Assembly (NCBI GenBank): GCA_021373025.1
Contig: JAJFTL010000035.1
Span: 1-32,265, forward strand
Origin: a bacterium
GTDB taxonomy: Bacteria; Caldisericota; Caldisericia; Cryosericales; Cryosericaceae
Direction: 5' to 3'
Length of the DNA stretch: 32,265 bases
In this document: positions 8,021 through 24,059 of the stretch, in pieces
Layout of the letters: each line of letters opens with the position of its first letter
How positions within the stretch are numbered: the first letter of the stretch is position 1
The notes under the pieces: model-generated
What the model was told of the DNA's origin: nothing
The model's database searches: none
Seen by the model: only the letters and a program-made list of their open reading frames with translations
Translations under genes and position numbers: made by a program

Positions 8021-8060
8021 TGCGCCGGATATCTTCTTCTGTCCGGCGCACTTCTTTTTC
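8021..8060 (+). terminator. Intrinsic terminator after infB
   Basis: A perfect 9-bp stem, TGCGCCGGA (8021-8029) with TCCGGCGCA (8042-8050), is followed by a T-rich tract (CTTCTTTTTC, 8051-8060). It lies 34 nt after the infB stop and ends the rimP-nusA-infB unit. Confidence 0.85.
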
Positions 8061-8077
8061 TCTTCATGACAATGGGA

Positions 8078-8106
8078 TTGACAACCCCAGAACCATCGGG
8101 TAGGAT
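8078..8106 (+). promoter_or_regulatory. Predicted promoter of the purine operon
   Basis: A consensus TTGACA (8078-8083) and TAGGAT (8101-8106) are spaced by exactly 17 nt. They lie just after the infB terminator and about 300 nt before purE. The predicted transcript start is near 8113. No PurR-type operator could be recognised. Confidence 0.75.
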
Positions 8107-8112
8107 GCTCAT

Positions 8113-8411
8113 GGTACCATTCTGGGCGGGTTGTTGTTCCGCCTGCTCAACGGGAGCTCCGATGACGGTGTTTGCTGGACGACAGAAATCAGCGACTACC
8201 TCCGTCACCCGAATTCCACTCTCGTCCCATCCCCTGCTGGAAGACCACCGTGTCCTCCAGATACCGCTGCCATGAGACAGTGGGGTCTATCCCTCCTTCG
8301 GGGAGAAGACTCCGACCTCATACCAACCAGACGAAACCCCCCCCGGTTGCCTTCAGTCCAGGCAACCGGGGTTTTTCCATTTCATGATCAACTGCCAGCG
8401 AGGAGATTATC
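8113..8411 (+). promoter_or_regulatory. Long structured 5' leader of the purine operon, class unidentified
   Basis: About 300 nt lie between the predicted start and purE with no convincing gene. Visible structure includes GGCGG/CCGCC (8125-8129 with 8139-8143) and TGACGG/CCGTCA (8163-8168 with 8202-8207). A TTCG-capped hairpin is closed by GTCT/AGAC (8285-8288 with 8307-8310). The strong terminator at 8341-8376 comes last. GGGCGGGTT (8124-8132) could pair, with one mismatch, with AACCCCCCC (8335-8343), which would take up the base of the terminator and so compete with it. I could not match it to the guanine, ZTP, PRPP/ykkC, THF, glutamine or T-box consensus as I know them. A metabolite- or protein-responsive attenuator is an inference. 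Confidence 0.5.
8341..8376 (+). terminator. Strong terminator upstream of purE (candidate attenuator)
   Basis: A perfect 12-bp stem, CCCCGGTTGCCT (8341-8352) with AGGCAACCGGGG (8360-8371), encloses a 7-nt loop and is followed by TTTTT (8372-8376). It stands between the operon promoter and purE, 35 nt before the start codon. Unless transcripts escape it, the operon would be silent, so conditional readthrough is likely. Confidence 0.85.
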
Positions 8412-8936
8412 ATGCCACAGATCGTCATCGTCATGGGCAGTGACGCAGATCTGCCTGTCCTGGAGCCGGCATTTGCCGTGTTCCGTCGTTTTCCCGTGAG
8501 CTGGGAAGCGCGCGTCATCTCAGCGCACCGGACACCGGTCGAGGCGTTCGAGTTTGCGGGCGCAGCGCGCGCGAACGGTGTGCAGGTTATCATCGCGGCT
8601 GCGGGCAAGGCAGCCCATCTTGCCGGCGTCCTGGCTGCCTCGACGACGCTGCCGGTCATCGGTCTTCCAGTAGGGACGTCAGGCATGGGAGGGATGGATG
8701 CCCTGCTGTCGACGGTGCAGATGCCCTCTGGTGTGCCGGTCGCGACAGTTGCGGTGGACGGGGCCGAGAATGCCGCCTGGCTGGCACTGGAGATCATAGG
8801 ACTGAGTGACGTGACCGTGACTGCGCGGTTGGAAGAGGAGCGGCAGCGTATGGGTGACAAGGTGCGCGCCAGGGACGTCAGCGTGCGCGAACACTACAAG
8901 AGCACCACCGAAATGCCTACAGGAGGATTGGAATGA
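8412..8936 (+). CDS. purE: N5-carboxyaminoimidazole ribonucleotide mutase PurE
   Basis: PurE interconverts N5-CAIR and CAIR in IMP synthesis. The 174-residue product has the class I pattern: [13 protein letters not shown] at the N-terminus, ISAHRTP with the catalytic His at residue 39, [25 protein letters not shown], and [28 protein letters not shown] at 8401-8406 lies 5 nt before the ATG. It is the first gene of the operon and ends in an ATGA overlap with purC. Class I enzymes normally use the product of PurK, but no purK is in the window. The class II signature (A-G-R-S-N in place of the A-x-x-A-A-H-L loop) is not present. Confidence 0.96.
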
Positions 8937-9649
8937 GACGAGGAGCAATGCTGTACGAGGGAAAGGCGAAGAGGGTCTACAGTACCGATGAATCGGGACA
9001 ATGCATCATCGAGTTCAAGGACGACGCATCGGCGTTCAACGGGATCAAGAAGGGAACCATCGCAGACAAGGGCATCATGAACAACACGATGTCATCGTAC
9101 CTGTTCGCGATGCTGTCAGCAGCCGGCGTTGCCAACCACTTCCTGGAGCGCATCGGCGAACGGGAGATGCTCGTTCGCCGAGTACAGATCATCCCGCTGG
9201 AGGTCATCGTTCGCAACATCGCGGCGGGTTCCATGAGTAAGCGCCTCGGCATTCCTGAAGGCAAGGTCCTTGCCAGTCCGGTGGTGGAATTCAGCTACAA
9301 GGATGATGCGCTGGGCGACCCGCTGGTCAACGAAGACCATATCCGTGCCTTGGGTGCCGCAACAGACGTTGAGGTCGCGACGCTCCGGCGCCTGGCACTG
9401 ACGGTCAATGACCTCCTGCGCGAACGATTCTCGTCTGTCGGGATCACGCTGGTGGACTTCAAGCTGGAATTCGGACGGGCGAATAGCATGATCTTCCTTG
9501 CCGATGAGATCTCGCCCGACACCTGCAGGTTCTGGGACACCGCAACGGGCGAAAAGCTCGACAAAGACCGCTTTCGCCGTGATCTGGGCGGTGTCGAGGA
9601 AGGCTATCGCGAGGTCCTGGGGCGCCTGCTGTCCGGGAGCGCGCAATGA
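8933..9649 (+). CDS. purC: SAICAR synthase PurC
   Basis: PurC joins aspartate to CAIR with ATP to give SAICAR. The 238-residue product has the family motifs [57 protein letters not shown] and [14 protein letters not shown], covering the ATP and substrate sites. The start at 8933 overlaps the purE stop and has AGGAGG at 8921-8926, 6 nt upstream. An internal ATG at 8948 (MLYEGKAK) is the only sensible alternative. The length is typical for single-domain bacterial PurC, and it is followed by an ATGA overlap with purS. Confidence 0.97.
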
Positions 9650-9897
9650 AGGCCCGGGTGCTGATCACGCCGAAGAAGGGCATCGCCGATCCCCAGGGGA
9701 CGGCGATTGAACAGGCGCTCCATGCGCTCGGCTTCACAGGTGCGCGCGGAGTCAGGATGGGCAAATGCATTGAACTCGAATTGCCGGACGGGGACCCAAA
9801 TTCAGCACGTGATGCCTTGGCTCGCATGAGCGAGCAGCTGCTCGCCAACACGAACATCGAACAGTACACCTGCATGATCCTGGATGAGGACGTATGA
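9646..9897 (+). CDS. purS: FGAM synthase subunit PurS
   Basis: PurS is the small bridging subunit that, with PurQ and PurL, forms the three-part formylglycinamidine ribonucleotide synthase. At 83 residues it has the usual size. The sequence fits the fold: [18 protein letters not shown] near the N-terminus, [14 protein letters not shown] in the middle, then [19 protein letters not shown]. It overlaps purC and purQ by 4 nt each. The stoichiometric order purS-purQ-purL is conserved in bacteria that use small PurL, and supports the call. Confidence 0.95.
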
Positions 9898-10610
9898 AGT
9901 TTGCGGTCGCGGTCTTTCCGGGCTCGAACTGCGATATCGACGCATACCGTGCCATGGGTGCCGTTCTTGGACAGAAGGTCGAGTATGTCTGGCACCGCGC
10001 AACGGATCTGTCGGGCTTTGATGGCGTGATCCTGCCGGGTGGCTTCTCTTACGGCGACTACCTGCGGCCGGGCGCTATCGCCCACTTCTCGCCCCTTATG
10101 ACATCGGTCGTCCGTTTCGCCCGGGGGGGAGGGATCGTCATCGGCGTCTGCAACGGGTTCCAGTTGCTTACGGAGGCAGGCCTGCTCCCCGGAGCGCTGC
10201 TGCGCAACCGCGGGCTGACGTTTATCTGTGACACTGTCCACGTGCGTGTCGAGAATGCCGGGACGCCGTTCACCAGCCGCTGCGCTGCTGGGCAGGTCCT
10301 GCGCCTTCCGATCGCGCACGGTGACGGCAACTACAGCGTGGACGCCACTACTCTTGCGGCGATGGAACAGAAGAACCAGGTACTCCTGCGGTACTGTTCC
10401 GCTGAGGGGACCGCGGATGACGCGCACAATCCCAACGGTTCGTGCGCGAACATCGCCGGGGTCGTGAACGAGCAGGGCAACGTGGCGGGTATGATGCCGC
10501 ATCCCGAGCGTGCCGCCGAGTCCCTGTTGGGCGGGACCGACGGCCTGTTCATCCTGGGATCCGTCGTCGACGTTCTCACCCGGAGGGACCATGAATCCTG
10601 TGCGTGCTGA
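9894..10610 (+). CDS. purQ: FGAM synthase glutaminase subunit PurQ
   Basis: PurQ is the class I glutamine amidotransferase subunit that supplies ammonia to PurL. The 238-residue product starts [20 protein letters not shown]. The nucleophile is Cys86 in GVCNGFQLL, the oxyanion segment is [15 protein letters not shown], and PHPERAAE near the C-terminus supplies the catalytic His and Glu. The start overlaps purS by 4 nt, and its last 20 nt overlap purL. The C-terminus after [11 protein letters not shown] is short and not strongly conserved. Confidence 0.97.
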
Positions 10611-12792
10611 GCGGGTCGGGCTGACTGCAACGGAGTACCGGCGGGTCTGCGAACTCCTGGGCCGCGAACCCGGCGACGTCGAGCTGGACCTGTTCGGCGT
10701 GATGTGGAGCGAACACTGCAGCTACAAGACGTCGCGCCCTCTGCTGCGCCTGTTCCCGACCTCCGGGCCGGGGGTCCTGCAGGGGCCGGGCGAGAACGCC
10801 GGCATCGTGGACATCGGTGATGACCTGGCGGTCGTCATGAAAGTCGAGAGTCACAACCACCCGTCGGCCGTTGAACCCTATCAGGGAGCGGCCACAGGAT
10901 CCGGGGGCATCATCCGCGATATCTTCACGATGGGTGCGCGCCCGGTCGCGATGCTGGATTCACTGAGGTTCGGCGACCTGGAGGATGTCCACCAGCGAGC
11001 GCTGTTCCGGGAGGTGGTTAAGGGTATCGGTGACTACGACAACTGCATGGGGATCCCGACAGTTGCTGGCGAAGTAGGGTTCGATCCATCGTACGCGGGC
11101 AACTGCCTGGTGAATGCCATGTGCGTCGGCATCATTCGTCACGAGGACATCAAGCGTGGAGCAGCGGCAGGTGTCGGCAACGCCGTCATGCTGGTCGGAT
11201 CGACGACGGGACGGGACGGCATGGGAGGAGCCAGCTTCGCCTCGGTGGACCTGACGGCGGCCTCTCAGGAGCGCAAGTCGGCCGTGCAGGTGGGTGATCC
11301 ATTCATGGAGAAGCTGTTGCTGGAGGCGTGTTTGGAGCTGTTCCGGACGGACGCCGTCGTCGGTATTCAGGATCTGGGGGCGGCGGGGCTCACGTCAGCC
11401 AGTTGCGAAACGGCTGCCCGTGGTGGTGTGGGCATCGATCTCGACGTTGAACTGGTGCCGCGCCGGGAAGATGGCATGAGCGCTGTTGAGGTCATGATCT
11501 CGGAGTCGCAGGAGCGAATGCTGGTCATTGTTCGCCAAGGTCACGAGGATGAAGTACGGCGCATCTTCGACAAATGGGGACTCAACGCAGCGGTCATCGG
11601 CCATGTCACCGAGGATGGGATGCTGACGGTCCGACAGGACGGAGAGGTTGTCGCGCAGGTCCCGGCAAAGGCATTGGCCGAACAAGCCCCCTTGCGGCAT
11701 CCACAGGCAGAGCGTCCGACGTGGCAGGATGACGTCATGCGCCTGGATGAGACAGAACTGCCTGCTGTTTCCGACTGGAAGGTGGTATTGAAGGACGTAC
11801 TGCGCATGCCCACGGTCGCAAGCAAGGAGTGGGTCTATCGGCAGTATGACAGCGTCGTACGGACGAGCACGGTCGTCGGTCCGGGGTCCGACGCGGCCGT
11901 CCTGCGGGTCGATGGTACGACGTGCGGCATTGCCCTCACTATCGATGGGGCAGGGCCGATGTCGCTGCTGGACCCGGCGACAGGGGCAGCCATGGCGGTG
12001 GCTGAAGCTGCTCGGAATCTCGTCTGCAGTGGTGCGCGTCCACTCGCCCTGACGGATTGCCTGAACTTCGGCAACCCCGAGCGGCCGGACGTGTTCTGGC
12101 AGTTCAGTCAGGCCGTGGCGGGCATGAGTAAGGCTTGCCGCGCCCTGGGGATTCCGGTCATCGGTGGAAACGTCAGCTTCTACAACGAGACCGGCACATT
12201 GGCGATCCTGCCGACGCCCGTGGTGGGCATGGTAGGCGTCATGGATGACCCCGGCCGCGCGTGCAGGCAGGGGTTTGTCGCGCCCGGCGACAGCATCGTC
12301 CTGCTGGGCGAGTGTACCGATGAGCTGGGAGGAAGCGTCTATGTGCACATGGTGACCGGCCGGACGGCAGGTCATGTGCCGGTCCTGGACCTTGAACGTG
12401 AGTGCCTGGTCCAGACGGTCTGCCAGGGCGCCGTCAGCAGGGGGATCATACGATCAGCCCATGACGTCAGTGAGGGAGGGCTCGCGGTGACGCTGGCCGA
12501 GTCGTGCATCACGGGAGATATCGGGGCACACATCTCTCTGCCGGGGGGTGTGCGTCCTGACGCGCTGCTGTTTGGCGAAGCGCCGTCGCGGATCGTCGTG
12601 TCCGTCGCCCCTGAGGATCTGTGCGCGCTCCTGGAAATGGCCCGGAACGCAGGCGTGCCGGCCACGCTCCTGGGATGCGTCGGAGGATCTGATGTGATCC
12701 TGGAGGTCGGGGGAAGGTCCATTGTCCAGGCGCCAGTGACGGAACTGGCCGACGCATGGCGAGGGGCGCTGCCTGGAGTGATGGGCAGATGA
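10591..12792 (+). CDS. purL: FGAM synthase synthetase subunit PurL (small form)
   Basis: PurL uses ATP and ammonia from PurQ to turn FGAR into FGAM. At 733 residues it is the small form that needs PurS and PurQ, not the ~1300-residue fused enzyme. Motifs include MWSEHCSYK (His42), the metal/ATP segment [44 protein letters not shown] and [12 protein letters not shown]. The second AIRS-like repeat carries [23 protein letters not shown] and [14 protein letters not shown] chose ATG 10591 because CGGAGGGA (10581-10588) precedes it; upstream frame sequence has no family similarity. It overlaps purQ by 20 nt and purF by 4 nt. Confidence 0.97.
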
Positions 12793-14210
12793 GAGCCATC
12801 ACGGGACTGCACGAGGAGTGTGGGGTGTTCGGCATTGTCGGCGGCCCGCAGACCAAAGCTGCGCGTGCCACGTATTACGGCCTGTACGCATTGCAGCACC
12901 GCGGGCAGGAGAGCGCCGGGATCGCCGTCAGTACGGGAGGAGACATCCTGCACCACAAGGCCATGGGGCTGGTTTCGGAAGTCTTCGACGACAAGCGTCT
13001 CGCTGCACTGCCCGGTACGATGGCGTGCGGTCACGTCCGCTACTCGACATCGGGACGTAGCCTGGTGGTCAACGCCCAGCCTCTCGTCGTCCGCTACCGT
13101 GGCGGATCGCTGGCCCTCGCACACAACGGGAACCTGGTCAATGCTCCATCGCTGCGCGCAACGCTGGAACAGGAGGGCGTCATCTTCCAGACGTCGATCG
13201 ACAGCGAGCTCATCGCGAACCTCGTGGCGCGCGCGGACACCGCTGACATCGTGGAAGCTGTGCGCAGCGCCATGCGGATCGTGCGCGGAGCGTACGCTCT
13301 GGTCATCATGACGCCGGACCAGATCATCGGCGTGCGGGATCCAGACGGTATCCGTCCGCTGAGCATCGGGCGCGGCGAGAATACCTGGATGCTGGCCTCC
13401 GAGAGCTGCGCCTTCGACGCGGTCGGCGGAACCCTGGTCCGGGACGTGGAACCGGGGGAGATCGTGACACTGGACCGGGGTGGGGTAAGGAGCTACCCGC
13501 CCGGACTCGCGCGGTCGGAACGCCTGTGCATCTTCGAGTTCATCTACTTCGGCCGTCCGGACAGCATCATGGGGGCCGATACGATGTATGCCGTACGCAA
13601 GCGGTCGGGCGGACTGCTGGCCGGCGAGGCGCCCGCACAGGCCGACATCGTCGTGCCGGTGCCTGACTCGGGCATATCAGCAGCGGTCGGATATGCCGAG
13701 GTGTCCGGGATCCCGTTTGCCGAGGGGTTCGTCAAGAACCGTTACGTCGGGCGGACATTCATCCAGCCGGAACAGTCGCTGCGAGCGACGGGAGTCGACC
13801 TCAAGCTCAGCGTCCTCACCGACGTGGTGCGGGGAAAGCGGATCGTGCTGGTCGACGACTCCATCGTGCGGGGGACGACCATTCTGCGGCTGATCCGGAA
13901 GCTGCGCGCCGCGGGGGCGGCAGAGATCCATTTGCGCGTCGCATCGCCACCGGTCAGGTATCCCTGTCACTTCGGCATCGATACACCGTCGCGCGGCGAG
14001 CTGATCGCCAACAGCCTGGCACCCGCTGCGATCTGCAGCAGGGTGAACGCCGATTCACTGGCTTACCTGAGCATCGAGGGGCTTCGCACGGCGGTCGGTG
14101 GCAAAGGCAGTTGTGATGCTTGTTTCAACGGCGACTACCCCATGGAAGTGCCGGACGAAGGCGACAAGATGGGCCTGGAGGCAAAGGAGACAGACTATGC
14201 AGCGAGCTAG
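12789..14210 (+). CDS. purF: Amidophosphoribosyltransferase PurF (Fe-S type)
   Basis: PurF commits PRPP to purine synthesis by replacing pyrophosphate with ammonia from glutamine. The 473-residue product begins [15 protein letters not shown]. Cys11 would become the N-terminal nucleophile after removal of a 10-residue propeptide, as in Bacillus PurF. The glutaminase domain shows LQHRGQESAGI and CGHVRYSTSG. The phosphoribosyltransferase site is VLVDDSIVRGTT. Cysteines in LCIFEFIYF, YPCHFGID and SCDACF match the 4Fe-4S ligands of the Bacillus-type enzyme, so an oxygen-sensitive cluster is inferred. The ATG overlaps the purL stop by 4 nt; purM starts inside its last 14 nt. Confidence 0.97.
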   Translation: MRAITGLHEECGVFGIVGGPQTKAARATYYGLYALQHRGQESAGIAVSTGGDILHHKAMGLVSEVFDDKRLAALPGTMACGHVRYSTSGRSLVVNAQPLVVRYRGGSLALAHNGNLVNAPSLRATLEQEGVIFQTSIDSELIANLVARADTADIVEAVRSAMRIVRGAYALVIMTPDQIIGVRDPDGIRPLSIGRGENTWMLASESCAFDAVGGTLVRDVEPGEIVTLDRGGVRSYPPGLARSERLCIFEFIYFGRPDSIMGADTMYAVRKRSGGLLAGEAPAQADIVVPVPDSGISAAVGYAEVSGIPFAEGFVKNRYVGRTFIQPEQSLRATGVDLKLSVLTDVVRGKRIVLVDDSIVRGTTILRLIRKLRAAGAAEIHLRVASPPVRYPCHFGIDTPSRGELIANSLAPAAICSRVNADSLAYLSIEGLRTAVGGKGSCDACFNGDYPMEVPDEGDKMGLEAKETDYAAS

Positions 14211-15225
14211 CTACGAGCAGGCGGGCGTGGACATTGCCGCAGGAGACCAGGCTGTCGAGCTGATCCGGCGCGCTGTGGCGTCGACGGAAACGCCGGGTAT
14301 GTTGGGGACCATCGGGGGGTTCGGCGGGTGTTTTCGACCGAACCTCGAGGGGCTGCGTGACCCCATCCTTGTGTCCGGGACGGACGGCGTTGGGACCAAG
14401 CTGAAGATCGCCTTCATGACGGGGCGTCATGATACCGTGGGCATTGACTGTGTTGCGATGTGCGTGAACGATGTCGCAGCGATGGGAGCCGACCCGCTGT
14501 TCTTTCTCGACTACATTGCACTCGGCCATCTTGTTCCTGAACGTGTCGCCGAGGTTGTGGAGGGGGTGGCTGCCGGCTGTCGGCAGGCGCACTGCGCGCT
14601 CGTCGGGGGTGAGACAGCCGAGATGCCGGGGTTCTACCCGCCTGATGAGTATGATCTTGCGGGTTTCTGTGTCGGGCTGGTCGACCGCGAGTGGATCGTC
14701 GACGGGCATGCCGTCAAAGCGGGCGACGTTATCGTGGGATTACCGTCTTCCGGCCTGCACAGCAATGGTTTCTCCCTGGTGCGGCACGTGGTCTTCGACC
14801 GGTGCGGTCTGGATGTGGACAGCTACGTTCCAGAGCTGGGCCGGACGGTCGGCGAAGAGTTGCTGGAGCCCACCATTATCTACGTGGACGCGGCCACCCG
14901 GGCACGGAACGTCGCACCTGTTCGAGGGATGGCCCACATCACGGGCGGCGGACTCCTGGGCAATATCCCGCGCATCATTCCGTATGGTCTGCGTGCACAG
15001 CTCGATCTCCGCAACTGGCAGATCCCTCCCGTCTTCGTGTGGCTGACGCAGCTGGGCAATCTGGACGAAACGGAGTGCTACCAGACGTTTAACATGGGGA
15101 TCGGGTTTGTGCTGGTCGTGCCGCAGGCATCGGCGGGAGCCCTTTGTGGTGAGCTTGCGCATGACGGCGCACGTGTGATCGGCACGGTCGTGCCGGGAGA
15201 CGCCGGCGTGGAGCTGGTCCGATGA
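14197..15225 (+). CDS. purM: AIR synthase PurM
   Basis: PurM closes the imidazole ring of FGAM with ATP to form AIR. The 342-residue product begins MQRASYEQAGVDIAAGDQAVELI and has the AIRS-family motifs GTIGGFGGCF, LVSGTDGVGTKLKIA, CVNDVAAMGADPLFFLDY, LVGGETAEMPGFY, GLPSSGLHSNGFSLVR and AHITGGGLLGNIPRI. The ATG at 14197 lies within the end of purF and follows AAAGGAGA (14183-14190). The frame is open further upstream but without similarity. The gene ends in an ATGA overlap with purN. Confidence 0.97.
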   Translation: MQRASYEQAGVDIAAGDQAVELIRRAVASTETPGMLGTIGGFGGCFRPNLEGLRDPILVSGTDGVGTKLKIAFMTGRHDTVGIDCVAMCVNDVAAMGADPLFFLDYIALGHLVPERVAEVVEGVAAGCRQAHCALVGGETAEMPGFYPPDEYDLAGFCVGLVDREWIVDGHAVKAGDVIVGLPSSGLHSNGFSLVRHVVFDRCGLDVDSYVPELGRTVGEELLEPTIIYVDAATRARNVAPVRGMAHITGGGLLGNIPRIIPYGLRAQLDLRNWQIPPVFVWLTQLGNLDETECYQTFNMGIGFVLVVPQASAGALCGELAHDGARVIGTVVPGDAGVELVR

Positions 15226-15851
15226 CACGCGTCGCGATCCTGGCGTCAGGAAATGGGACGGACTGCGAGGCGGTGCTGGAAGCAGTCGAGCAAGGGCGGA
15301 TCCACGATGCGGTCGTCGCCATCGTGGTTGCCGACCGACCGGCTGGCGTGCTGGAGCGGGCTCGGCGTCATGGGGTCAAGGGGCTGCTCGTAGACCGGCG
15401 CAGTTTAGGGCGGGCATCGTACGATGCCGCTCTCAGAGCGACCATGATCGAGCACCGCGTCGATGTCATCGTCTTGGCAGGGTACCTCAGCGTTCTGGAC
15501 CGGGAAACGGTAGCGAGGTGGCGGAATCACATCATCAACGTCCATCCCTCACTCATTCCGGCGTTCTGCGGTCACGGCTTCTATGGAGAACATGTCCATC
15601 AGGCCGTGCTGGACGCAGGAGTGAAGCTGACGGGCGTAACCGTGCACTTCGTGGACGAGGGGACCGACACCGGACCCATCATCGCGCAGGAGGCCATCCC
15701 CGTGCTGGACGACGATGACGCGGCATCCCTCGGTGCGCGCGTTCTGGAAGTTGAACACCGGCTGTTGCCATGGGCCGTGGAGCTGTACTGTCGTGGACGG
15801 TTGTCTGTCGACGGGCACAAGGTACGTATCGACAAGGAGGAGAAAACGTGA
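15222..15851 (+). CDS. purN: GAR transformylase PurN
   Basis: PurN transfers a formyl group from 10-formyl-tetrahydrofolate to GAR. The 209-residue product has the Rossmann start RVAILASGNGTD, and INVHPSLIPAFCGHGFYGEHVH, which carries the catalytic Asn and His. GVTVHFVDEGTDTGPIIAQ supplies the catalytic Asp. Two segments differ from the E. coli type: GTD replaces the usual GSN in the first loop, and the CGHGFYG insertion follows the HPS motif. This combination resembles a PurN subtype I associate with Clostridia-like bacteria. It overlaps purM and purH by 4 nt each. Confidence 0.95.
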   Translation: MTRVAILASGNGTDCEAVLEAVEQGRIHDAVVAIVVADRPAGVLERARRHGVKGLLVDRRSLGRASYDAALRATMIEHRVDVIVLAGYLSVLDRETVARWRNHIINVHPSLIPAFCGHGFYGEHVHQAVLDAGVKLTGVTVHFVDEGTDTGPIIAQEAIPVLDDDDAASLGARVLEVEHRLLPWAVELYCRGRLSVDGHKVRIDKEEKT

Positions 15852-17392
15852 AACGAAGAGTGATCATCAGTGTTTCGGACAAGACAGGTGTGACGGATCT
15901 GGCGAGGCGGCTCGTCGCCATAGGCTGGGAGATCGTGAGCAGCGGCGGGACGGCGGCGGCCCTCGCAGGAGCTGGTATCCCCGTGACGCCGGTCAGCGAC
16001 GTGACGGGTTTCCCGGAGTGCCTGGACGGACGCGTCAAAACCCTCCATCCAGCCGTCCATGCCGGGATCCTTGCGCGAAGAGGCGTGCCGGAACACATGC
16101 AGCAACTACAGGCGCTCGGTGTGACGCCAGTGGATCTCGTCGTCGTGAACCTGTATCCCTTCCGTCAGACGGTGGCGCGTCCAGGAGTGACGTGGGAGGA
16201 AGCGGTCGAGCAGATCGACATCGGCGGCCCGTCCCTGATCCGCGCGGCTGCCAAGAACCACGCGTCCGTCACCGTGGTTGTCGATCCAGCGGACTACGAG
16301 CGTGTCCTGGGCGAGTACGAACGTGACGGAGATACGAGTGACGCTACCCGGCGCAGCCTGGCCGGCCGGGCCTTCCGCCACACGGCCGCCTATGACGCGT
16401 TCATTGCGCAGTGGTTCGGGGACCAGTTGGGTGTCCACTTTCCCGAACAGCTGACACGTACCTGGAACCGGTCACAGGACCTCCGGTACGGCGAAAACCC
16501 TCATCAGGCGGCGGCACTGTACAAGGATCCGCTACCGGCCCCTGGTTCTGTCGCGATGGCCGAACAGCTGGGTGGCAAAGAGCTCTCCTTCAACAACATC
16601 GGCGATGCGGACGCAGCGCTCTCCTGCCTGGGGGAGTTCCCGGCCGATGTCCCGACGGTCGTGGCACTCAAGCACAGCAATCCCTGTGGCGTTGGTACGG
16701 GCTGCGACCTGATGACCGCCTGGCGGGGAGCCCGCGACGGCGACCCCGTGTCCGTCTATGGTGGGGTCGTCGCGCTCAACGGGACCGTGGACGAACCGCT
16801 GGCGGCGTCGCTGGCAAAACTCTTCCTAGAGATCGTTGCGGCGCCGGGATACACCGACGGGGCACTGCAGATCCTGCGGAAGAAGAAGAACCTGCGCGTC
16901 CTGCGTGTCGCCCCGGCCACCTCGGCGCCGGGCGAATGTTCGCTGCGCGAAGTGCGCGGGGGGCTGCTGGTGCAGGACCGGGATACACTGCTCCTTGGTG
17001 AGGAGCCGCGCGTCGTGACCCGCCGCTCTCCCACCGCCCGGGAGCAAGCCGATCTGCTGTTTGCGTGGCGCGTCGTCAAGCACGTCACGTCGAACGCGAT
17101 TGTTTTGGCGCGGGACGGAGCGACCATCGGGGTCGGTCCGGGACAGACCAACCGCATCTGGGCCCTGCAGAACGCGATTCGACAGTCGACGGTGGCGACA
17201 ACAGGATCCGTGCTGGCGTCCGACGCGTTCTTTCCTTTTGCGGACTGCGTCCAGGCCGCCGCAGTGGCGGGCATCCGGGCAATCATCCAGCCGGGCGGCT
17301 CGATCCTGGATGCAGATTCCATTGCGGCTGCGGATGAAGCGGGCATAGCTATGCTGTTCACTGGCGTCCGGCACTTCCGGCACCAGGGCTAG
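15848..17392 (+). CDS. purH: Bifunctional AICAR transformylase / IMP cyclohydrolase PurH
   Basis: PurH performs the last two steps to IMP. At 514 residues it has the standard two-domain length. The N-terminal MGS-like IMP cyclohydrolase has RVIISVSDKTGV, SSGGTAAAL, GRVKTLHPAVHAGIL and VNLYPF. The C-terminal transformylase has LRYGENPHQAA, ELSFNNIGDADAALSCL, ALKHSNPCGVG and SDAFFPFADCV. I chose the GTG at 15848 because AAGGAGG (15834-15840) lies 7 nt upstream and the start forms a GTGA overlap with the purN stop. Similarity begins at K-R-R-V-I-I-S. Confidence 0.97.
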   Translation: MKRRVIISVSDKTGVTDLARRLVAIGWEIVSSGGTAAALAGAGIPVTPVSDVTGFPECLDGRVKTLHPAVHAGILARRGVPEHMQQLQALGVTPVDLVVVNLYPFRQTVARPGVTWEEAVEQIDIGGPSLIRAAAKNHASVTVVVDPADYERVLGEYERDGDTSDATRRSLAGRAFRHTAAYDAFIAQWFGDQLGVHFPEQLTRTWNRSQDLRYGENPHQAAALYKDPLPAPGSVAMAEQLGGKELSFNNIGDADAALSCLGEFPADVPTVVALKHSNPCGVGTGCDLMTAWRGARDGDPVSVYGGVVALNGTVDEPLAASLAKLFLEIVAAPGYTDGALQILRKKKNLRVLRVAPATSAPGECSLREVRGGLLVQDRDTLLLGEEPRVVTRRSPTAREQADLLFAWRVVKHVTSNAIVLARDGATIGVGPGQTNRIWALQNAIRQSTVATTGSVLASDAFFPFADCVQAAAVAGIRAIIQPGGSILDADSIAAADEAGIAMLFTGVRHFRHQG

Positions 17393-17394
17393 CC

Positions 17395-18657
17395 ATGGAC
17401 ATCCTGGTCGTCGGTTCCGGAGGACGCGAGCATGCCCTGTGCTGGAAGATGCGGCAGAGTCCATTGGCAAAACGCCTGTGGGCCGCGCCTGGAAACGCCG
17501 GCATCGCGCAGTGTGCCAGGTGCGTTCCCATAGCGGCGAACGACACGCCCGGCATCGTCGCGTTCTCGGTGAGCCATGCCGTGGACCTCGTCGTCGTTGG
17601 TCCTGAAGACCCATTGACGAAGGGCCTTGCCGACCACCTCCGCGCTGCAGGTGTTCGTGTCCTGGGTCCTGGAGCGGACGGGGCACGGCTTGAGGGGAGC
17701 AAGACGTTTACAAAGGACTTCTGCCATCGGCACGGCATCCCGACGGCACGTGCCATCGCATGTGCCAGCGCCGCAGAAGCGCTGGGGCATCTGGGCGACC
17801 TGGGGTTTCCCGTCGTCGTGAAAGCGGACGGTCTTGCGGCCGGGAAAGGCGTCATTGTCGCTGCCAACCGGGAGGAAGTACAGTCAGCGGTGGAGCGGCT
17901 GTCGGGAACGGGTCATCTGCTGCTCGAGGAATTCCTGGCGGGCAGGGAATGTTCACTGCTCTACCTGTGTGACGGGCACGCCATGGTCCCGCTCGCTCCC
18001 GCCCGTGACTACAAGCGGGTGGACGATGGAGACCGGGGGCCCAATACCGGTGGTATGGGTGCGTACAGCCCTGTTCCGGATGCCGGGCCGGACGTCCAGC
18101 GGGAGGCAGGCAGACAGATCGCGCAGAAGGTGCTGGCAGGGCTCGCCGACGAGCACATCGATTACCGCGGGGTCCTGTATGCCGGCTGCATGCTGACCGG
18201 GGATGGTCTCAAGGTCTTGGAGTTCAACTGCCGGTTTGGCGATCCGGAGACGCAGGTTCTGATGCCGCGCGTGGACGGAGACATCGTTCCTGCCCTCACG
18301 GCCTGCGCCGACGGGCGCCTCGACGGTGTCCGGATCGGATGGCGGGACGAGGCGGCGGTGTGCGTGCAGATGGTGTCACGCGGATACCCGGCGGCACCGG
18401 AGACGGGTATGATGATCACAGGACTGGAGGATGTTCCCGAGGACGTGGTTGTCTTTCATGGAGGCACAAGGAGGGAGAACGATCACGTCATGACGGCCGG
18501 TGGTCGCGTGCTAGGCGTCACTGCCTGCGGTGCCACGATGGCGCAGGCGCGGGAACGGGCATACGCCGGCATAGGGGCCGTCCGGTTCGAGGGTGCGCAC
18601 TGGCGCACGGATATCGCTGCGCAGCAGGGCGTTACAGCAAAGGAGGAACGACAATGA
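17395..18657 (+). CDS. purD: GAR synthetase PurD
   Basis: PurD ligates glycine to phosphoribosylamine with ATP, the second step of the pathway. The 420-residue ATP-grasp protein starts MDILVVGSGGREHALCWKM. It shows FPVVVKADGLAAGKGV (ATP-grasp B domain), GPNTGGMGAYSP and LEFNCRFGDPETQVLMPR (metal and glycine site). The start lies 2 nt after purH and has only a weak upstream G-rich site, so it is probably expressed by coupling. It ends in an ATGA overlap with purB. Confidence 0.97.
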   Translation: MDILVVGSGGREHALCWKMRQSPLAKRLWAAPGNAGIAQCARCVPIAANDTPGIVAFSVSHAVDLVVVGPEDPLTKGLADHLRAAGVRVLGPGADGARLEGSKTFTKDFCHRHGIPTARAIACASAAEALGHLGDLGFPVVVKADGLAAGKGVIVAANREEVQSAVERLSGTGHLLLEEFLAGRECSLLYLCDGHAMVPLAPARDYKRVDDGDRGPNTGGMGAYSPVPDAGPDVQREAGRQIAQKVLAGLADEHIDYRGVLYAGCMLTGDGLKVLEFNCRFGDPETQVLMPRVDGDIVPALTACADGRLDGVRIGWRDEAAVCVQMVSRGYPAAPETGMMITGLEDVPEDVVVFHGGTRRENDHVMTAGGRVLGVTACGATMAQARERAYAGIGAVRFEGAHWRTDIAAQQGVTAKEERQ

Positions 18658-19970
18658 TCGATCGATATGCACTGCCACCGGTACGCGCAATCTGGACCGA
18701 GCGGGCTCAGTACGAGCGGTGGCTGGAGGTAGAGTGCGCCGTCGTGGCGGCGTGGGAGGAACTGGGGGCGGCTCCTGCCGGGACAGCTGACCGGATCCGC
18801 CGGGCCGCGGTCATCGATGTCGACGATATTCACGCCATCGAGGCGACGGTCGACCATGATGTCATTGCCTTCATCACGTCGACGACGCACGCCATGGGCG
18901 ACGAGGCGCGTTTCTTTCACCTGGGGATGACCTCCTCGGATGTTGTCGATACGGCGCTGGGGCTTGCACTGAAGCAGTCGGGACAGCTGCTCCTGCAACA
19001 GCTGGACACACTGCGCGGCGTTCTTGCCGACCAGGCAGTGCGGTACCGCGGTACCGTGGTGGTGGGAAGGACGCATGGCATCCACGCCGAACCGACCTCC
19101 TTTGGGCTCAAGTTCCTGTCCTGGCTTGCGGAGACGGAACGGAACCAGGAGCGACTGGCACATGCCACGGAGGGTGTCGCCTGTGGCAAGATCTCCGGCG
19201 CGGTCGGCAACTATGCCAACATCGATCCGCGCGTTGAGCAGATAGCTCTCGGTCGACTCGGCCTGGCTGCTTCCAAATGCTCCACACAGATCGTTCCCCG
19301 CGATCAGCATGCAGAGTTTGTGGCGGCACTCGCGCTGGTGGGTGCTCAGGTGGAACGCATGGCAACCGAGATCCGCCATCTGCAGCGCACGGAGGTGCGC
19401 GAGGCCCAGGAGCCGTTCAAGCCAGGGCAACGGGGATCATCGGCGATGCCGCACAAGAAGAACCCGATCCTGTGCGAGCGCCTCTGCGGGATGGCCCGGC
19501 TGCTGCGCGGGTACGTGACGGCGGCGTACGAGGATGTCGCCCTGTGGCACGAGCGTGATATCTCCCACTCGTCGGTGGAGCGTGTCATCCTGCCGGACGC
19601 GGTGATGATGACGTACTACATGCTGGACCGCGTGACCTGGCTGATGGAGGGCCTGATCGTGGACGCCGACCGCATGGAGACCAACTTTGCCGTGTCGCAC
19701 AATCTCGTCTTCTCGCAGCGCGTCATGCTGGCGCTCGTTGGGCGGGGCATGTCACGCGAGGACGCATATACCCTGGTGCAGGGGCTTGCGCTCGCGGCAT
19801 GGGAACATGGAGCCGACTTCCGAACCCTGTGTGCGGCAGAGGCACGCATTGGTGCGCTGCTCCCGCCTGCGGAGCTGGAGGCTCTTTTTGAACCGCAGTA
19901 TTACCTGAGGAACATCGGACCGGTCTATGCGCGGTTTGGTCTGGACAAGACAAAGGAGGAACAGTCATGA
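18654..19970 (+). CDS. purB: Adenylosuccinate lyase PurB
   Basis: PurB acts twice, splitting SAICAR to AICAR and adenylosuccinate to AMP, releasing fumarate each time. The 438-residue product begins MIDRYALPPVRAIWTERAQYERWLEVE and has TTHAMGDEARFFHLGMTSSD and GRTHGIHAEPTSFG. The fumarase/lyase signature GSSAMPHKKNP near residue 260 contains the flexible-loop catalytic Ser. AAAGGAGG lies a few nt before the ATG at 18654, which overlaps the purD stop. The 4-nt overlap with purA matches its second role in the AMP branch. Confidence 0.97.
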   Translation: MIDRYALPPVRAIWTERAQYERWLEVECAVVAAWEELGAAPAGTADRIRRAAVIDVDDIHAIEATVDHDVIAFITSTTHAMGDEARFFHLGMTSSDVVDTALGLALKQSGQLLLQQLDTLRGVLADQAVRYRGTVVVGRTHGIHAEPTSFGLKFLSWLAETERNQERLAHATEGVACGKISGAVGNYANIDPRVEQIALGRLGLAASKCSTQIVPRDQHAEFVAALALVGAQVERMATEIRHLQRTEVREAQEPFKPGQRGSSAMPHKKNPILCERLCGMARLLRGYVTAAYEDVALWHERDISHSSVERVILPDAVMMTYYMLDRVTWLMEGLIVDADRMETNFAVSHNLVFSQRVMLALVGRGMSREDAYTLVQGLALAAWEHGADFRTLCAAEARIGALLPPAELEALFEPQYYLRNIGPVYARFGLDKTKEEQS

Positions 19971-21220
19971 GACGTGTCGCAGTCGTGGGCGCCCAGTGGG
20001 GCGACGAAGGCAAAGGCAAGGTCGTCAACTATTTTGCCAAAGAGTTCGAATGGATCGTCCGGTTTGCCGGCGGCGCCAACGCAGGGCACACCGTCTACGT
20101 CCATGACCGGAAGTATGTCAACCATCTCCTGCCGTGCATTGTTCCGGATGGTCCCGGCAGGGGATTCCTGGGGGCCGGCATGGTCGTGGATCTGCAGCAG
20201 CTCGTGGGTGAGCTCGAGGCGCTGGCCGCCGACTTCCCCGGCGTCGGGGCCAAGTTCGCCGTGGACCCCGAGGTATTCCTCGTCCTGCCGTGGCACAAGC
20301 AGCAGGACATCCTCCTGGAGAAGATGCGCGCTGCACCGATCGGGACGACCGGCCGTGGCATCGGACCGGCGTACACCGACAAGGCGTCGCGCGAGGGGAT
20401 CAAGCTGTGTCACCTGTTTGACGAGCAGATGCTGAAGGAACGGCTTGAGAACTCATGGCATATGAAGCAGATCCTGTACCAGGGACAGCTCACCATGCCA
20501 CCGGCAGAGGTGGCGGCCGAACTCATCCGCTTGAGAGACCGGCTCACGAAGCTCGGCGTGCAGTTCACCAGCGCCGTGGATATGGGCAACGTTTTTCGCA
20601 GCACGTCCGTGCTCTTTGAGGGAGCGCAGGGCGTCCTCCTGGACCTGGACTTCGGCACCTTCCCGTTCGTGACCTCCGGCTCGTGCATGGCGCACGGCGT
20701 CTCCTCGGTCGGGTTCTCAACCTTTGAGCTGGACGACGTGGCCGGCGTCCTCAAGGCGTACACGACGCGTGTTGGTGCCGGACCCTTCCCGACTGAGGAA
20801 GACAGCTCCGTTACCCAGGGCATCCGCGAACGCGGAAAAGAATACGGTGCCACGACCGGGCGACCGCGTCGCGTCGGCTGGTTGGACCTGCCCGGACTGC
20901 GGTACGCCGCCATTCGGTCGGGACTCACGAGCTTCGTCATCACCAAGGCGGACGTCCTCAACGGTCTGGAAACCGTCAAGGTGTGTACAGGATACCGCAT
21001 CGACGGCGTCGTGCGCGATATCCCGTCCACGTCGCACGACTTCTTCGTCGCCGAACCGGTGTATGTGGAGCTGCCCGGCTGGCCGTCGACCAACCATGTC
21101 AATTTCCTCAAGTACATGACGTTCATCGAAGAGCAGGTGCACGTGCCCATCACGTACATCTCGTATGGACCGAAAACGGACGAGATGGAGACAAAGGACA
21201 ACCTCATCATGAGCATGTAG
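19967..21220 (+). CDS. purA: Adenylosuccinate synthetase PurA
   Basis: PurA condenses IMP with aspartate using GTP, the first committed step to AMP. The 417-residue product has GAQWGDEGKGK with the P-loop at residues 12-18, FAGGANAGHTVYV, GTTGRGIGPAYTDKA, LFEGAQGVLLDLDFGTFPFVTS, TTRVGAGPFPTE and GRPRRVGWLDLPGLRYA. It is the last gene of the twelve. It overlaps purB by 4 nt and has AAAGGAGGA upstream. No clear intrinsic terminator is visible in the 143 nt that follow; only a weak CCCC/GGGG hairpin (21281-21295) was seen. Confidence 0.97.
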   Translation: MRRVAVVGAQWGDEGKGKVVNYFAKEFEWIVRFAGGANAGHTVYVHDRKYVNHLLPCIVPDGPGRGFLGAGMVVDLQQLVGELEALAADFPGVGAKFAVDPEVFLVLPWHKQQDILLEKMRAAPIGTTGRGIGPAYTDKASREGIKLCHLFDEQMLKERLENSWHMKQILYQGQLTMPPAEVAAELIRLRDRLTKLGVQFTSAVDMGNVFRSTSVLFEGAQGVLLDLDFGTFPFVTSGSCMAHGVSSVGFSTFELDDVAGVLKAYTTRVGAGPFPTEEDSSVTQGIRERGKEYGATTGRPRRVGWLDLPGLRYAAIRSGLTSFVITKADVLNGLETVKVCTGYRIDGVVRDIPSTSHDFFVAEPVYVELPGWPSTNHVNFLKYMTFIEEQVHVPITYISYGPKTDEMETKDNLIMSM

Positions 21221-21338: not shown

Positions 21339-21365
21339 TTGAGTAATCATTGACAGGACTATAAT
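21339..21365 (+). promoter_or_regulatory. Possible promoter overlapping the start of the GGDEF gene
   Basis: A perfect TATAAT (21360-21365) overlaps the first candidate start codon, with TTGAGT (21339-21344) 15 nt upstream. Transcription from it would begin near 21372, at the second in-frame ATG (21373). A leaderless mRNA would result. TATAAT could be chance, and AGGA (21355-21358) may instead serve as a ribosome binding site for the ATG at 21364. Confidence 0.35.
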
Positions 21366-23595
21366 GCAAAGTATGGATCCAGAGACGGAGACACAAGAGA
21401 CAGGAGGAAAAAGTAGTTCTGGAGTTGGTCTCCAGACGGAACTGCAGCATTTGTATGAAAAAGCGTTTGACATGTCCGACCGGGATGCTCGCGCCGCCAA
21501 GGCCATGGCAGATGAGATCTACTCGCGGGCTGAAGCCGCAGGCGACTTCTACTGGCAGGCTCTGTCCCGGTATCTCGCCGGTTTCTGTCTCTACAACGTG
21601 AGCGAGTATGACAGCGCCATGCAGGAGTTTGAGCATGGTGACCAGATTGCGCAGACGCACGATCTCCCGGCCCTCGTCGTCAAGTTTCGCAATGGGTATG
21701 GCGCCATCTTTGAACGTCTTGGACGGTATCATCAGGCGGTCGAGCAATTCGCCGAGGGCTTGAAGCGGGCCAGGGAAATGGGCCTGAAGAGTGACGCGGC
21801 ACACTTCCTGGTCAACATGGGAGAGGTCTGTCTCCTCATGGGCGATACGGCGCAAGCCTTGGCGTTCGAGTTGGAGGCTGAGGGATACGTCGTGCAGCTG
21901 CCCGACGAGCGCAGATTTGCCATCGATGTGTACTACAACCTTGGGGAGGCGCAGGCCAGGAGTGGCCTCATGGAAGAAGCAGAACGCTCCTACCGTCGAA
22001 GCCTTGAGGCGGCCACGACGTGTGAGAATATGATCTCACAGGTGGAAGCGCGTGTCCGTCTGGGCTCGATCCTCGCGAGTCGTGGTCACGACATCGAGGG
22101 ACTTGGCGTTATTAAGGAAGCACTTCGCCTGTGCAGGAGTTGCGGTTTTCCTCTGCAGGAGGCGGCATCGCTTATCGCTCTTGGGCACATCGAGCAGAAC
22201 ATGGGACGCTTTGCAGACGCGGCCCGCGACTATCAGGCGGCAGTCGATGTGGCCAAAGGTCACAAGATGGGGGACCTGCTGCCGTCCGCTCTGGAAGCGC
22301 TGTCCGCTGCAAAAGCTGCCATGGGTAGTTTCGAGGAAGCGTATCAATGCCTTCGTCAGTCGGTCGAGGCCGGACGTGCATGGTCCAGTTCCGAGGCGGC
22401 CAGGACACTGGCCGAGGTGTCGATCGGTGATCGTCTCGAAAAGGCAAGGCGCGAAGCAGATCTTGAGAGGGCTCGACGTGAGGGGCTGGAGTCTGCGAAC
22501 GAACGTCTTCGGATCGTGACGCGCATCGGACGCAGGCTCACGCAGAGTCTTGAGCCTGACGATATCCTCCTCAGGATGTGGAGCGAGCTCTCGGCCACGA
22601 TCGACCTGCAGTGGCTAGCGTTTGGCATCTATAACCCCGAGTCGGGCGAGATCGAGTTTCCTGGCTGGATCGAGTCAGGCGTCCTTCAGGCTGCGTCATC
22701 TGTCTTTGTGAATGACGAGTCCAGCCTTGCCGCTCTCTGTGTTCGGGAGAAACGCGTCCTTTACTACTCGACATCCGATGAGGCTCGATCCGCATTGAGG
22801 GAGACGTCGCTCATCGCCCTCAAGGCTACGTCCCACAGGGCAGTGCCCGAGAAGGCGGAGACTATGGCGTTCCTTCCTCTGTTTCGGGAAGACGATATCA
22901 TCGGAGTCCTGACGGTACAGAGTGTCAAGGACCATGCATATTCGGACGAGATCGTTGAAATGCTCGAGGCAGTGGCTTCGTTCTGTGCAATCGCTGTCGA
23001 GAACGCCATGATCATGATCCGGCTGAACGAGATGAACCAGATGATCTCGGGCGAAAAGGAACAGGTGGAGAAGGCTGCACTGGCATCGTCCTGGCTGGCC
23101 GAGCACGACAGCCTGACGGGATTGTCCAACCGCCGCTTCCTCCAGAGAGTCCTCGACGAGAACATCCGTCTGGCGGTGCTGCAGGACCAAACTATCGCCG
23201 TGTTCTTCGTTGACATCGATGACTTCAAGAGGATCAACGATACATACGGGCACGACACGGGCGATCAAACACTCATTGCCGTCGGTAAGCGTCTGCTCGC
23301 TGTTTTCCGCGAGGGAGACTACGTCGCGCGCGTTGGTGGGGACGAGTTTGTCGTTGTGGCGCCCGGTGTCAAGCACGTAGTCGGCATTTCGTCCATGGCC
23401 GACAAGCTGGTCGAGGCGTTCAATGAACCCTTTGCGATTGGCAAACACTCGATCTCGATCACAATATCCGTTGGCGTCGCAATCTTCCCGGATCACGGGC
23501 ACACGAGCCAGGAGCTGATCGGGCGCGCCGACGAGGCAATGTACCTGATCAAGAGGACTGGCAAGGGGGCATGGCGAATGTGGTCGGCCTTCTAG
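21364..23595 (+). CDS. TPR-GAF-GGDEF diguanylate cyclase
   Basis: Likely makes cyclic-di-GMP from two GTP in response to a sensed signal. The 743 residues divide into a helical N-terminal region of tetratricopeptide-like repeats (about 15-340; for example NMGEVCLLMGDTAQALAFELEAEGY and YNLGEAQARSGLMEEAERSYRRSLEAA) and a GAF-like domain (about 385-560). A short coiled coil with EKEQVEKAAL leads into a GGDEF domain from HDSLTGLSNRRFL. The active-site GGDEF is intact at 658-662. The inhibitory-site RxxD (REGD, 649-652) is placed correctly five residues before it, so product feedback is expected. No transmembrane segment is seen, so it is cytoplasmic. ATG 21364 or ATG 21373 could be the start. It is a single gene after the purine operon. 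Confidence 0.9.
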   Translation: MQSMDPETETQETGGKSSSGVGLQTELQHLYEKAFDMSDRDARAAKAMADEIYSRAEAAGDFYWQALSRYLAGFCLYNVSEYDSAMQEFEHGDQIAQTHDLPALVVKFRNGYGAIFERLGRYHQAVEQFAEGLKRAREMGLKSDAAHFLVNMGEVCLLMGDTAQALAFELEAEGYVVQLPDERRFAIDVYYNLGEAQARSGLMEEAERSYRRSLEAATTCENMISQVEARVRLGSILASRGHDIEGLGVIKEALRLCRSCGFPLQEAASLIALGHIEQNMGRFADAARDYQAAVDVAKGHKMGDLLPSALEALSAAKAAMGSFEEAYQCLRQSVEAGRAWSSSEAARTLAEVSIGDRLEKARREADLERARREGLESANERLRIVTRIGRRLTQSLEPDDILLRMWSELSATIDLQWLAFGIYNPESGEIEFPGWIESGVLQAASSVFVNDESSLAALCVREKRVLYYSTSDEARSALRETSLIALKATSHRAVPEKAETMAFLPLFREDDIIGVLTVQSVKDHAYSDEIVEMLEAVASFCAIAVENAMIMIRLNEMNQMISGEKEQVEKAALASSWLAEHDSLTGLSNRRFLQRVLDENIRLAVLQDQTIAVFFVDIDDFKRINDTYGHDTGDQTLIAVGKRLLAVFREGDYVARVGGDEFVVVAPGVKHVVGISSMADKLVEAFNEPFAIGKHSISITISVGVAIFPDHGHTSQELIGRADEAMYLIKRTGKGAWRMWSAF

Positions 23596-23704: not shown

Positions 23705-24059
23705 GGGGGTGCTGGGGTTCGACAGATACGTGAGGTGCAGGGTTGCAGGTAGAGGACGACAGTTGGCCTCTTTAATCATCTGTCACAAAAAAACAAGCCA
23801 ATAACAATTACGCTCTAGCTGCCTAAGCGCGGCTAGCGTTCCTCCGGGCCGTCCATCCCTGGGTCCGTCAGGGGCGCGTCTACAGGGGTCTCGAAGGCGA
23901 GGGTCGTTCCCGTTCCTTGCCCAAGAGTACCAAACGGGAAATCGTGCAGAGCGGGGCGTCGACTCCCGGCCGAGCGCAAGGTACAATGGTCGACTAAACC
24001 TGTAGTAACACTGTGTTTAACGTATTTGGACGCGAGTTCAACTCTCGCCACCTCCACCA
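23705..24059 (+). ncRNA. ssrA: Transfer-messenger RNA (tmRNA)
   Basis: tmRNA with SmpB rescues stalled ribosomes and tags the unfinished protein for degradation. The 5' end GGGGGTG (23705-23711) pairs with CACCTCC (24049-24055), followed by encoded ACCA. The T-arm is GCGAG-TTCAACT-CTCGC (24032-24048). After the acceptor comes the conserved CTGGGGTTCGACAG. The tag frame runs from resume codon GCC (23797) to TAA (23824-23826) and encodes ANNNYALAA, close to the common ANDNYALAA with the degradation-signal end ALAA. The 355-nt length is normal for one-piece tmRNA. A promoter and terminator frame the gene. Confidence 0.96.

Follow-up and report, generated by a model that had tools for sequence, protein, structure and literature searches.

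Control of de novo purine operons in bacteria is known to rely on PurR repressors and on riboswitches that sense guanine, PRPP or ZTP. Another route to the control of nucleotide synthesis is UTP-sensitive attenuation in the pyrBI leader of Escherichia coli. There, the leader ORF extends across the terminator, and the pause site is rich in U; systems of this type need no competing antiterminator. Riboswitches for PRPP and guanine act on de novo purine operons via a terminator (PMC7266159). In Corynebacterium, the purS motif (WRC-75-1) is proposed to work at the level of translation, by means of an anti-SD loop (PMC11109978). In Streptococcus, the fthC uORF motif (uORFC-39-1) consists of a hairpin, a Shine-Dalgarno sequence, an upstream ORF (uORF) whose stop codon lies in a second hairpin, and a terminator (PMC11109978). 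Finally, the TnaC leader peptide stalls at its Pro-UGA end (PMC8429421). Attenuation by a uORF is thus of an already-known kind; we found, in the open-access literature, no report that a leader peptide attenuates an operon for de novo purine synthesis.

We propose such a role for the leader of a purine operon located in a stretch of 32,265 nucleotides, analysed here as a whole and called the window, from a genome of 1.6 Mb. With a probability that we put at about one half, this leader attenuates transcription in a way that depends on translation, through a uORF or leader peptide. As in pyrBI, a nucleotide-synthesis operon stands behind a leader ORF and a terminator, and coupling of ribosome and polymerase is proposed; by contrast with pyrBI, the leader ORF (ORF1) stops 65 nt short of the terminator, which only a hypothetical re-initiated frame (ORF2) would cross. 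The order of parts is that of the fthC uORF motif, also followed by a metabolic gene, related there to one-carbon and folate metabolism (PMC11109978). The likeness that we claim is one of part order; the gene and the lineage are different, and the two computational proposals differ in their number of representatives, 69 for the fthC motif against five for the purE leader (PMC11109978). Like tnaC, ORF1 would encode a short peptide with a Pro-UGA end placed so as to affect downstream events (PMC8429421). We claim for it no TnaC-like Trp/Asp arrest residues, and the purE leader differs from tnaC in having an intrinsic terminator and in preceding genes for purine synthesis rather than a catabolic operon. 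The purS motif is, as is this leader, rare, limited to a genus and placed before a purine synthesis operon, yet the anti-SD loop proposed for it sets it apart from a leader with an intrinsic terminator and a uORF. As for the PRPP and guanine riboswitches, Rfam finds no match to them in the window or in its relatives.

The purine operon and its leader

The features of the locus are collected in Table 1. In the window, dnaE, a rimP-like gene (for which the family search gave no identification), nusA and infB precede the leader, and the twelve pur genes follow it. Each of these was matched in NCBIfam, in keeping with the twelve-gene operon described in the first-pass annotation of this DNA, and their order is the same in two relatives (G009 and G013). 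Directly after purA (21364-23595) comes a gene whose product has a TPR-like region at its N-terminus and a GGDEF domain at its C-terminus, and further on a tmRNA gene (23705-24059; Rfam RF00023, 151 bits).

Table 1. Positions in the window of the purine operon and of the elements of its leader.
Feature	Position	Strand	Basis
Sigma-70-type promoter, TTGACA-17-TAGGAT	8078..8106	+	Consensus scan; conserved in four relatives
Hairpin P0, TGGGCGG (8123-8129) with CCGCCTG (8139-8145)	8123..8145	+	Kept in 5/5 species
Shine-Dalgarno sequence of ORF1, ACGGGAG	8150..8156	+	Sequence; position conserved in relatives
ORF1, putative leader peptide MTVFAGRQKSATTSVTRIPLSSHPLLEDHRVLQIPLP, 37 codons and UGA	8162..8275	+	Frame conservation, coding scores
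Hairpin P2, base AUGAG (8272-8276) with CUCAU (8317-8321)	8272..8321	+	Fold energies, conservation
ORF2 frame, possible re-initiation frame	8272..8499	+	ATG overlaps ORF1 stop (ATGA)
11-nt spacer ACCAACCAGAC, from P2 to the terminator region	8322..8332	+	Identical in 5/5 species
Intrinsic terminator, 12-bp stem and U5	8341..8376	+	Scan; stem kept in 5/5 species
Regulated operon purE-C-S-Q-L-F-M-N-H-D-B-A	8412..21220	+	NCBIfam matches, every gene above curated cutoff

The first-pass annotation had a consensus promoter driving a long structured leader that ends in a strong terminator, and these statements stood. The promoter matches 10 of 12 consensus positions, and promoter-like sites number two where shuffled sequences would give 0.4. 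In the four relatives its -35 element is invariant, and its -10 element reads TANNAT. Transcription would start near 8113, giving a leader of about 260 nt up to the terminator, with a fold (8113-8380) of -98.2 kcal/mol (z -2.8) that none of 200 dinucleotide shuffles equalled. The terminator stem (8341-8371) has nine G-C among its 12 pairs and is followed by TTTTT, reaching 8376, with a gap of 35 nt before the purE ATG. Since the scan found no promoter-like site on the + strand between terminator and purE, the operon needs read-through, as the same annotation had held. Within the stem (8346-8367), the window has two U-A pairs where the four relatives have a C-A mismatch and a U-G pair. A second terminator-like hairpin (8021-8050), the sequence of which is not conserved in the relatives, lies directly 3' of infB and sets the leader apart from the nusA-infB operon.

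The leader follows purE closely in its distribution. Fifteen members of the genus were examined: purE is found in five, the leader in exactly the same five, always in the order infB-leader-purE, and in none of the ten that are devoid of purE. This suggests that much of the genus lost, or never had, de novo purine synthesis. The members lacking both include one genome that is 94% complete. Outside the genus, DNA searches of 54 genomes of the phylum gave no homologue of the leader, a covariance model built on P2 together with the spacer had no match in 386 related genomes, and the regions before purE in the other families of this phylum, on inspection, disclosed no such element. A scan of viral contigs for the exact pattern gave no match, nor do the genomes hold a second copy of the P2/spacer site. 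A contig search with purE retrieved matches from distant relatives only, mostly Clostridia.

Sampling comes down to two clearly separated lineages, the window on one side and four relatives, similar to one another, on the other. Between them, DNA identity is 79% in ORF1, 90% in P2 and the spacer and 82% in the terminator, against 71% in purE and 74% in purC, so that the leader is under stronger constraint than the genes downstream; the stretch from infB to the promoter cannot be aligned (less than 20% identity).

Does this element belong to a known RNA family? At gathering score, Rfam finds only the tmRNA in the window and no family in the leader, and the leaders of the four relatives have no match up to E 1. 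The covariance models of the guanine, PRPP, ZTP and ppGpp riboswitches go unmatched in the window and in the four relatives. The first-pass annotation, which recognised no known riboswitch class here, was right in this respect. Several candidates (sX13, snoZ247, mir-4523, Betaproteobacteria-1) were seen below threshold only, and none of them turns up again in the relatives. The best of them in the leader, sX13 (RF02232, 26.3 bits), is a small RNA, and this weak match, together with the strength of the terminator, would fit a constitutive unit, in which a stable RNA of some 260 nt extends from promoter to terminator while the operon lives on unregulated leakage. We hold this for highly improbable: the match is far under its cutoff of 50 and is missing in the relatives, and the leader is found only before purE, and only where purE exists.

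A putative leader peptide and the hairpin at its stop codon

Just downstream of hairpin P0, the leader displays a ribosome-binding site and a short ORF, overlooked in the first-pass annotation. The Shine-Dalgarno sequence, 5 nt before the ATG of the window, reads AAAGGAG in three relatives and AAGGGAG in G013, and this ATG is aligned to TTG-ATG in the relatives. In all five species, the frame is free of indels and of stops and ends with the same UGA. The peptide of the relatives is MVLAELLQSATTTVTRIPPLPHPLLEDQRILQVPLP in G001, with deviations at a few residues in the others, and its C-terminus is conserved as LQ(V/I)PLP-UGA. Variable columns fall on codon positions 1, 2 and 3 in the numbers 6, 8 and 15, an excess at third positions. 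A column-shuffle test gives the coding score a P value of 0.01-0.02, with only two separated lineages to draw upon, and a joint P of about 0.007 when the absence of stops is included (about 0.04 allowing for six frames). Judged by the codon usage of the window genes, this frame is the best-scoring one in 5/5 species, with values midway between those of true genes and those of wrong frames. Because well-separated lineages are only two, we take it as likely, rather than proven, that ORF1 codes for a peptide. A search with this peptide found it in these five leaders only, one other match being at chance level (E 0.075). It contains SATT(T/S)(V/A)T and scattered Pro and Leu residues; no residue dominates, and codons for a single amino acid are nowhere clustered.

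The stop codon of ORF1 (8273-8275) sits within the 5' base of P2, the upper stem of which pairs UGGGGUCU with AGACUCCG. This hairpin is the best conserved in the leader; its folding energy lies between -22 and -24 kcal/mol in every one of the five species, with z from -3.4 to -3.9, and its 13 lower pairs are invariant. Upstream, P0 shows one compensatory change, from C-G to U-A, and one one-sided change. Taking P0, P2 and the terminator together, 96.7% of cells are paired; conservation of leader pairs among relatives was one of the checks proposed in the first-pass annotation. The compensatory change in P0 is the only one among the five sequences, and covariation in the leader is no greater than in shuffles, invariant pairs being uninformative either way in so small a set.

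The ATG of ORF2 opens a frame that continues past the terminator in 5/5 species. Its alignment among the five is free of synonymous bias, and its frame differs from one lineage to the other: in the window, eight consecutive C lead up to and enter the terminator (8337-8344), where the relatives have CCACCCC, one base shorter. On these two grounds we do not take ORF2 for a coding sequence. In G013 its frame crosses the terminator without a stop and joins that of purE, with which it is out of register in the other species.

Possible ways to attenuate

Taken together, a Shine-Dalgarno sequence, a peptide frame that is conserved, a hairpin with a stop codon in its base and, behind it, a terminator make up the picture of a uORF attenuator. 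The ORF is short, its start and stop are conserved, and the terminator comes before the first structural gene. It is the evidence for ORF1 that makes us prefer this reading to an aptamer or a protein site. The first-pass annotation had suggested a new RNA switch or a protein-dependent attenuator; an unlisted, conserved leader of the attenuator type is indeed what we find, whereas ORF1 points to mediation by ribosomes.

What, then, would the ribosome do? RNA polymerase would start at about 8113, and a ribosome would load at the Shine-Dalgarno sequence of ORF1 to make the 37-codon peptide. P2 and the invariant spacer would act as a hairpin-type pause just before the terminator, where polymerase would await the ribosome. 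A hairpin with an 11-nt spacer resembles the hairpin-stabilised pause sites of the his and trp leaders, and such a role for the spacer would explain why it is invariant though unpaired. On arriving at the Pro-UGA stop, the ribosome would open P2, and its subsequent release, stall or re-initiation at the overlapping AUG, trailing polymerase into the terminator, would set whether the latter forms. Two routes may be imagined: re-initiation, along pyrBI lines, at the AUG that overlaps the stop, or a ribosome stalled at the conserved Pro-Leu-Pro-UGA end that would keep P2 open. In the likeliest logic, a shortage linked to purine nucleotides would slow polymerase in the G/A-rich segment of P2, the ribosome would keep up, and read-through would follow, UTP having this part in pyrBI. 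What the sequences themselves display are the parts, their conservation and a coding signal; we infer translation, pausing, the switch and its signal, as well as the tie to the supply of purines or GTP. In E. coli, a terminator is blocked by a ribosome standing on a stop codon only within about 27-30 nt (PMC4824070); the 65 nt that separate the ORF1 stop from the terminator exceed this, so that re-initiation in ORF2 or an RNA switch, both hypothetical, is required.

A bolder version of the second route makes ORF1 an arrest peptide. The stall at Pro-Leu-Pro-UGA would respond to a purine-related metabolite or NTP, open P2 and set the read-through of the operon, which would be the first case of de novo purine synthesis being sensed through a leader peptide. 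We regard this as speculative and, on the whole, improbable.

The textbook solution would be a competing antiterminator. The first-pass annotation had drawn one between 8124-8132, in the 5' arm of P0, and 8335-8343, in the 5' arm of the terminator, and occupancy of ORF1 by ribosomes could in principle set the choice. In the four relatives, the counterpart of this pairing, CCGGGUGG with CCACCCCGG, does appear in the minimum-energy fold before the 3' arm of the terminator is made. In the window, the pairing can be drawn with eight pairs and one C-C mismatch, yet it is absent from the minimum-energy fold, and its duplex energy is at the level of shuffles (P about 0.43, and 0.30-0.41 in three relatives); moreover, P0, with its compensatory pair, is the better-supported partner of this arm. 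Two further candidates were discarded. Pairing of the G-run of P2, CAGUGGGGU, with the terminator arm again has the energy of shuffles (P 0.27-0.41), and P2 is stronger. An antiterminator formed from the 3' arm of P2 upon masking of the stop codon by a ribosome is predicted in G009 and G013, but G001 and G007 have lost it. In the leaders of the five species, we found no conserved partner for the terminator arm that does better than shuffled sequence. The energies of the pairings tried being at this level, we do not accept a classical antiterminator, which we deem very unlikely; the possible competing pairing of the first-pass annotation is not supported. Of the hallmarks of a classical trp-type attenuator, we found in the leader neither a conserved competing antiterminator nor a run of codons for a regulated amino acid.

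There remains the invariance of P2 and the spacer, which exceeds what a uORF alone needs. It may be accounted for by a new ligand-binding riboswitch, with P2 (which has an asymmetric internal loop, ACAG / AC) and the spacer as aptamer, the terminator as expression platform and ORF1 as an incidental feature. This element is nearly invariant where purE is at 71%, the invariant stretch 8308-8332 is devoid of synonymous change, the leader lies upstream of a biosynthetic operon, and since it has no Rfam match the class would be new. Yet this leader is shared with an ORF endowed with a ribosome-binding site and conserved in the way of coding sequences, P2 is a simple hairpin in which we see no junction or pseudoknot, no alternative pairing of P2 with the terminator arm rises above chance, and the five sequences offer but one compensatory pair. 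A riboswitch thus seems to us rather unlikely. We find it distinctly doubtful that an RNA-binding protein sits on P2 and the C/A-rich spacer, preventing or promoting the terminator. An invariant unpaired segment does adjoin an invariant hairpin, and no conserved RNA antiterminator is there to do the work; however, we recognised no candidate regulator gene in or next to the operon, the site has no second copy in the genomes, and ORF1 would be left unexplained.

The uORF attenuator that we favour is readily amenable to test with a reporter, the leader being compact and better conserved than its genes. If it is what we propose, a poorly studied, uncultured lineage would have come to a separate solution for the control of its purine operon, in which nucleotide supply would be joined to translation via the coupling of ribosome and polymerase.
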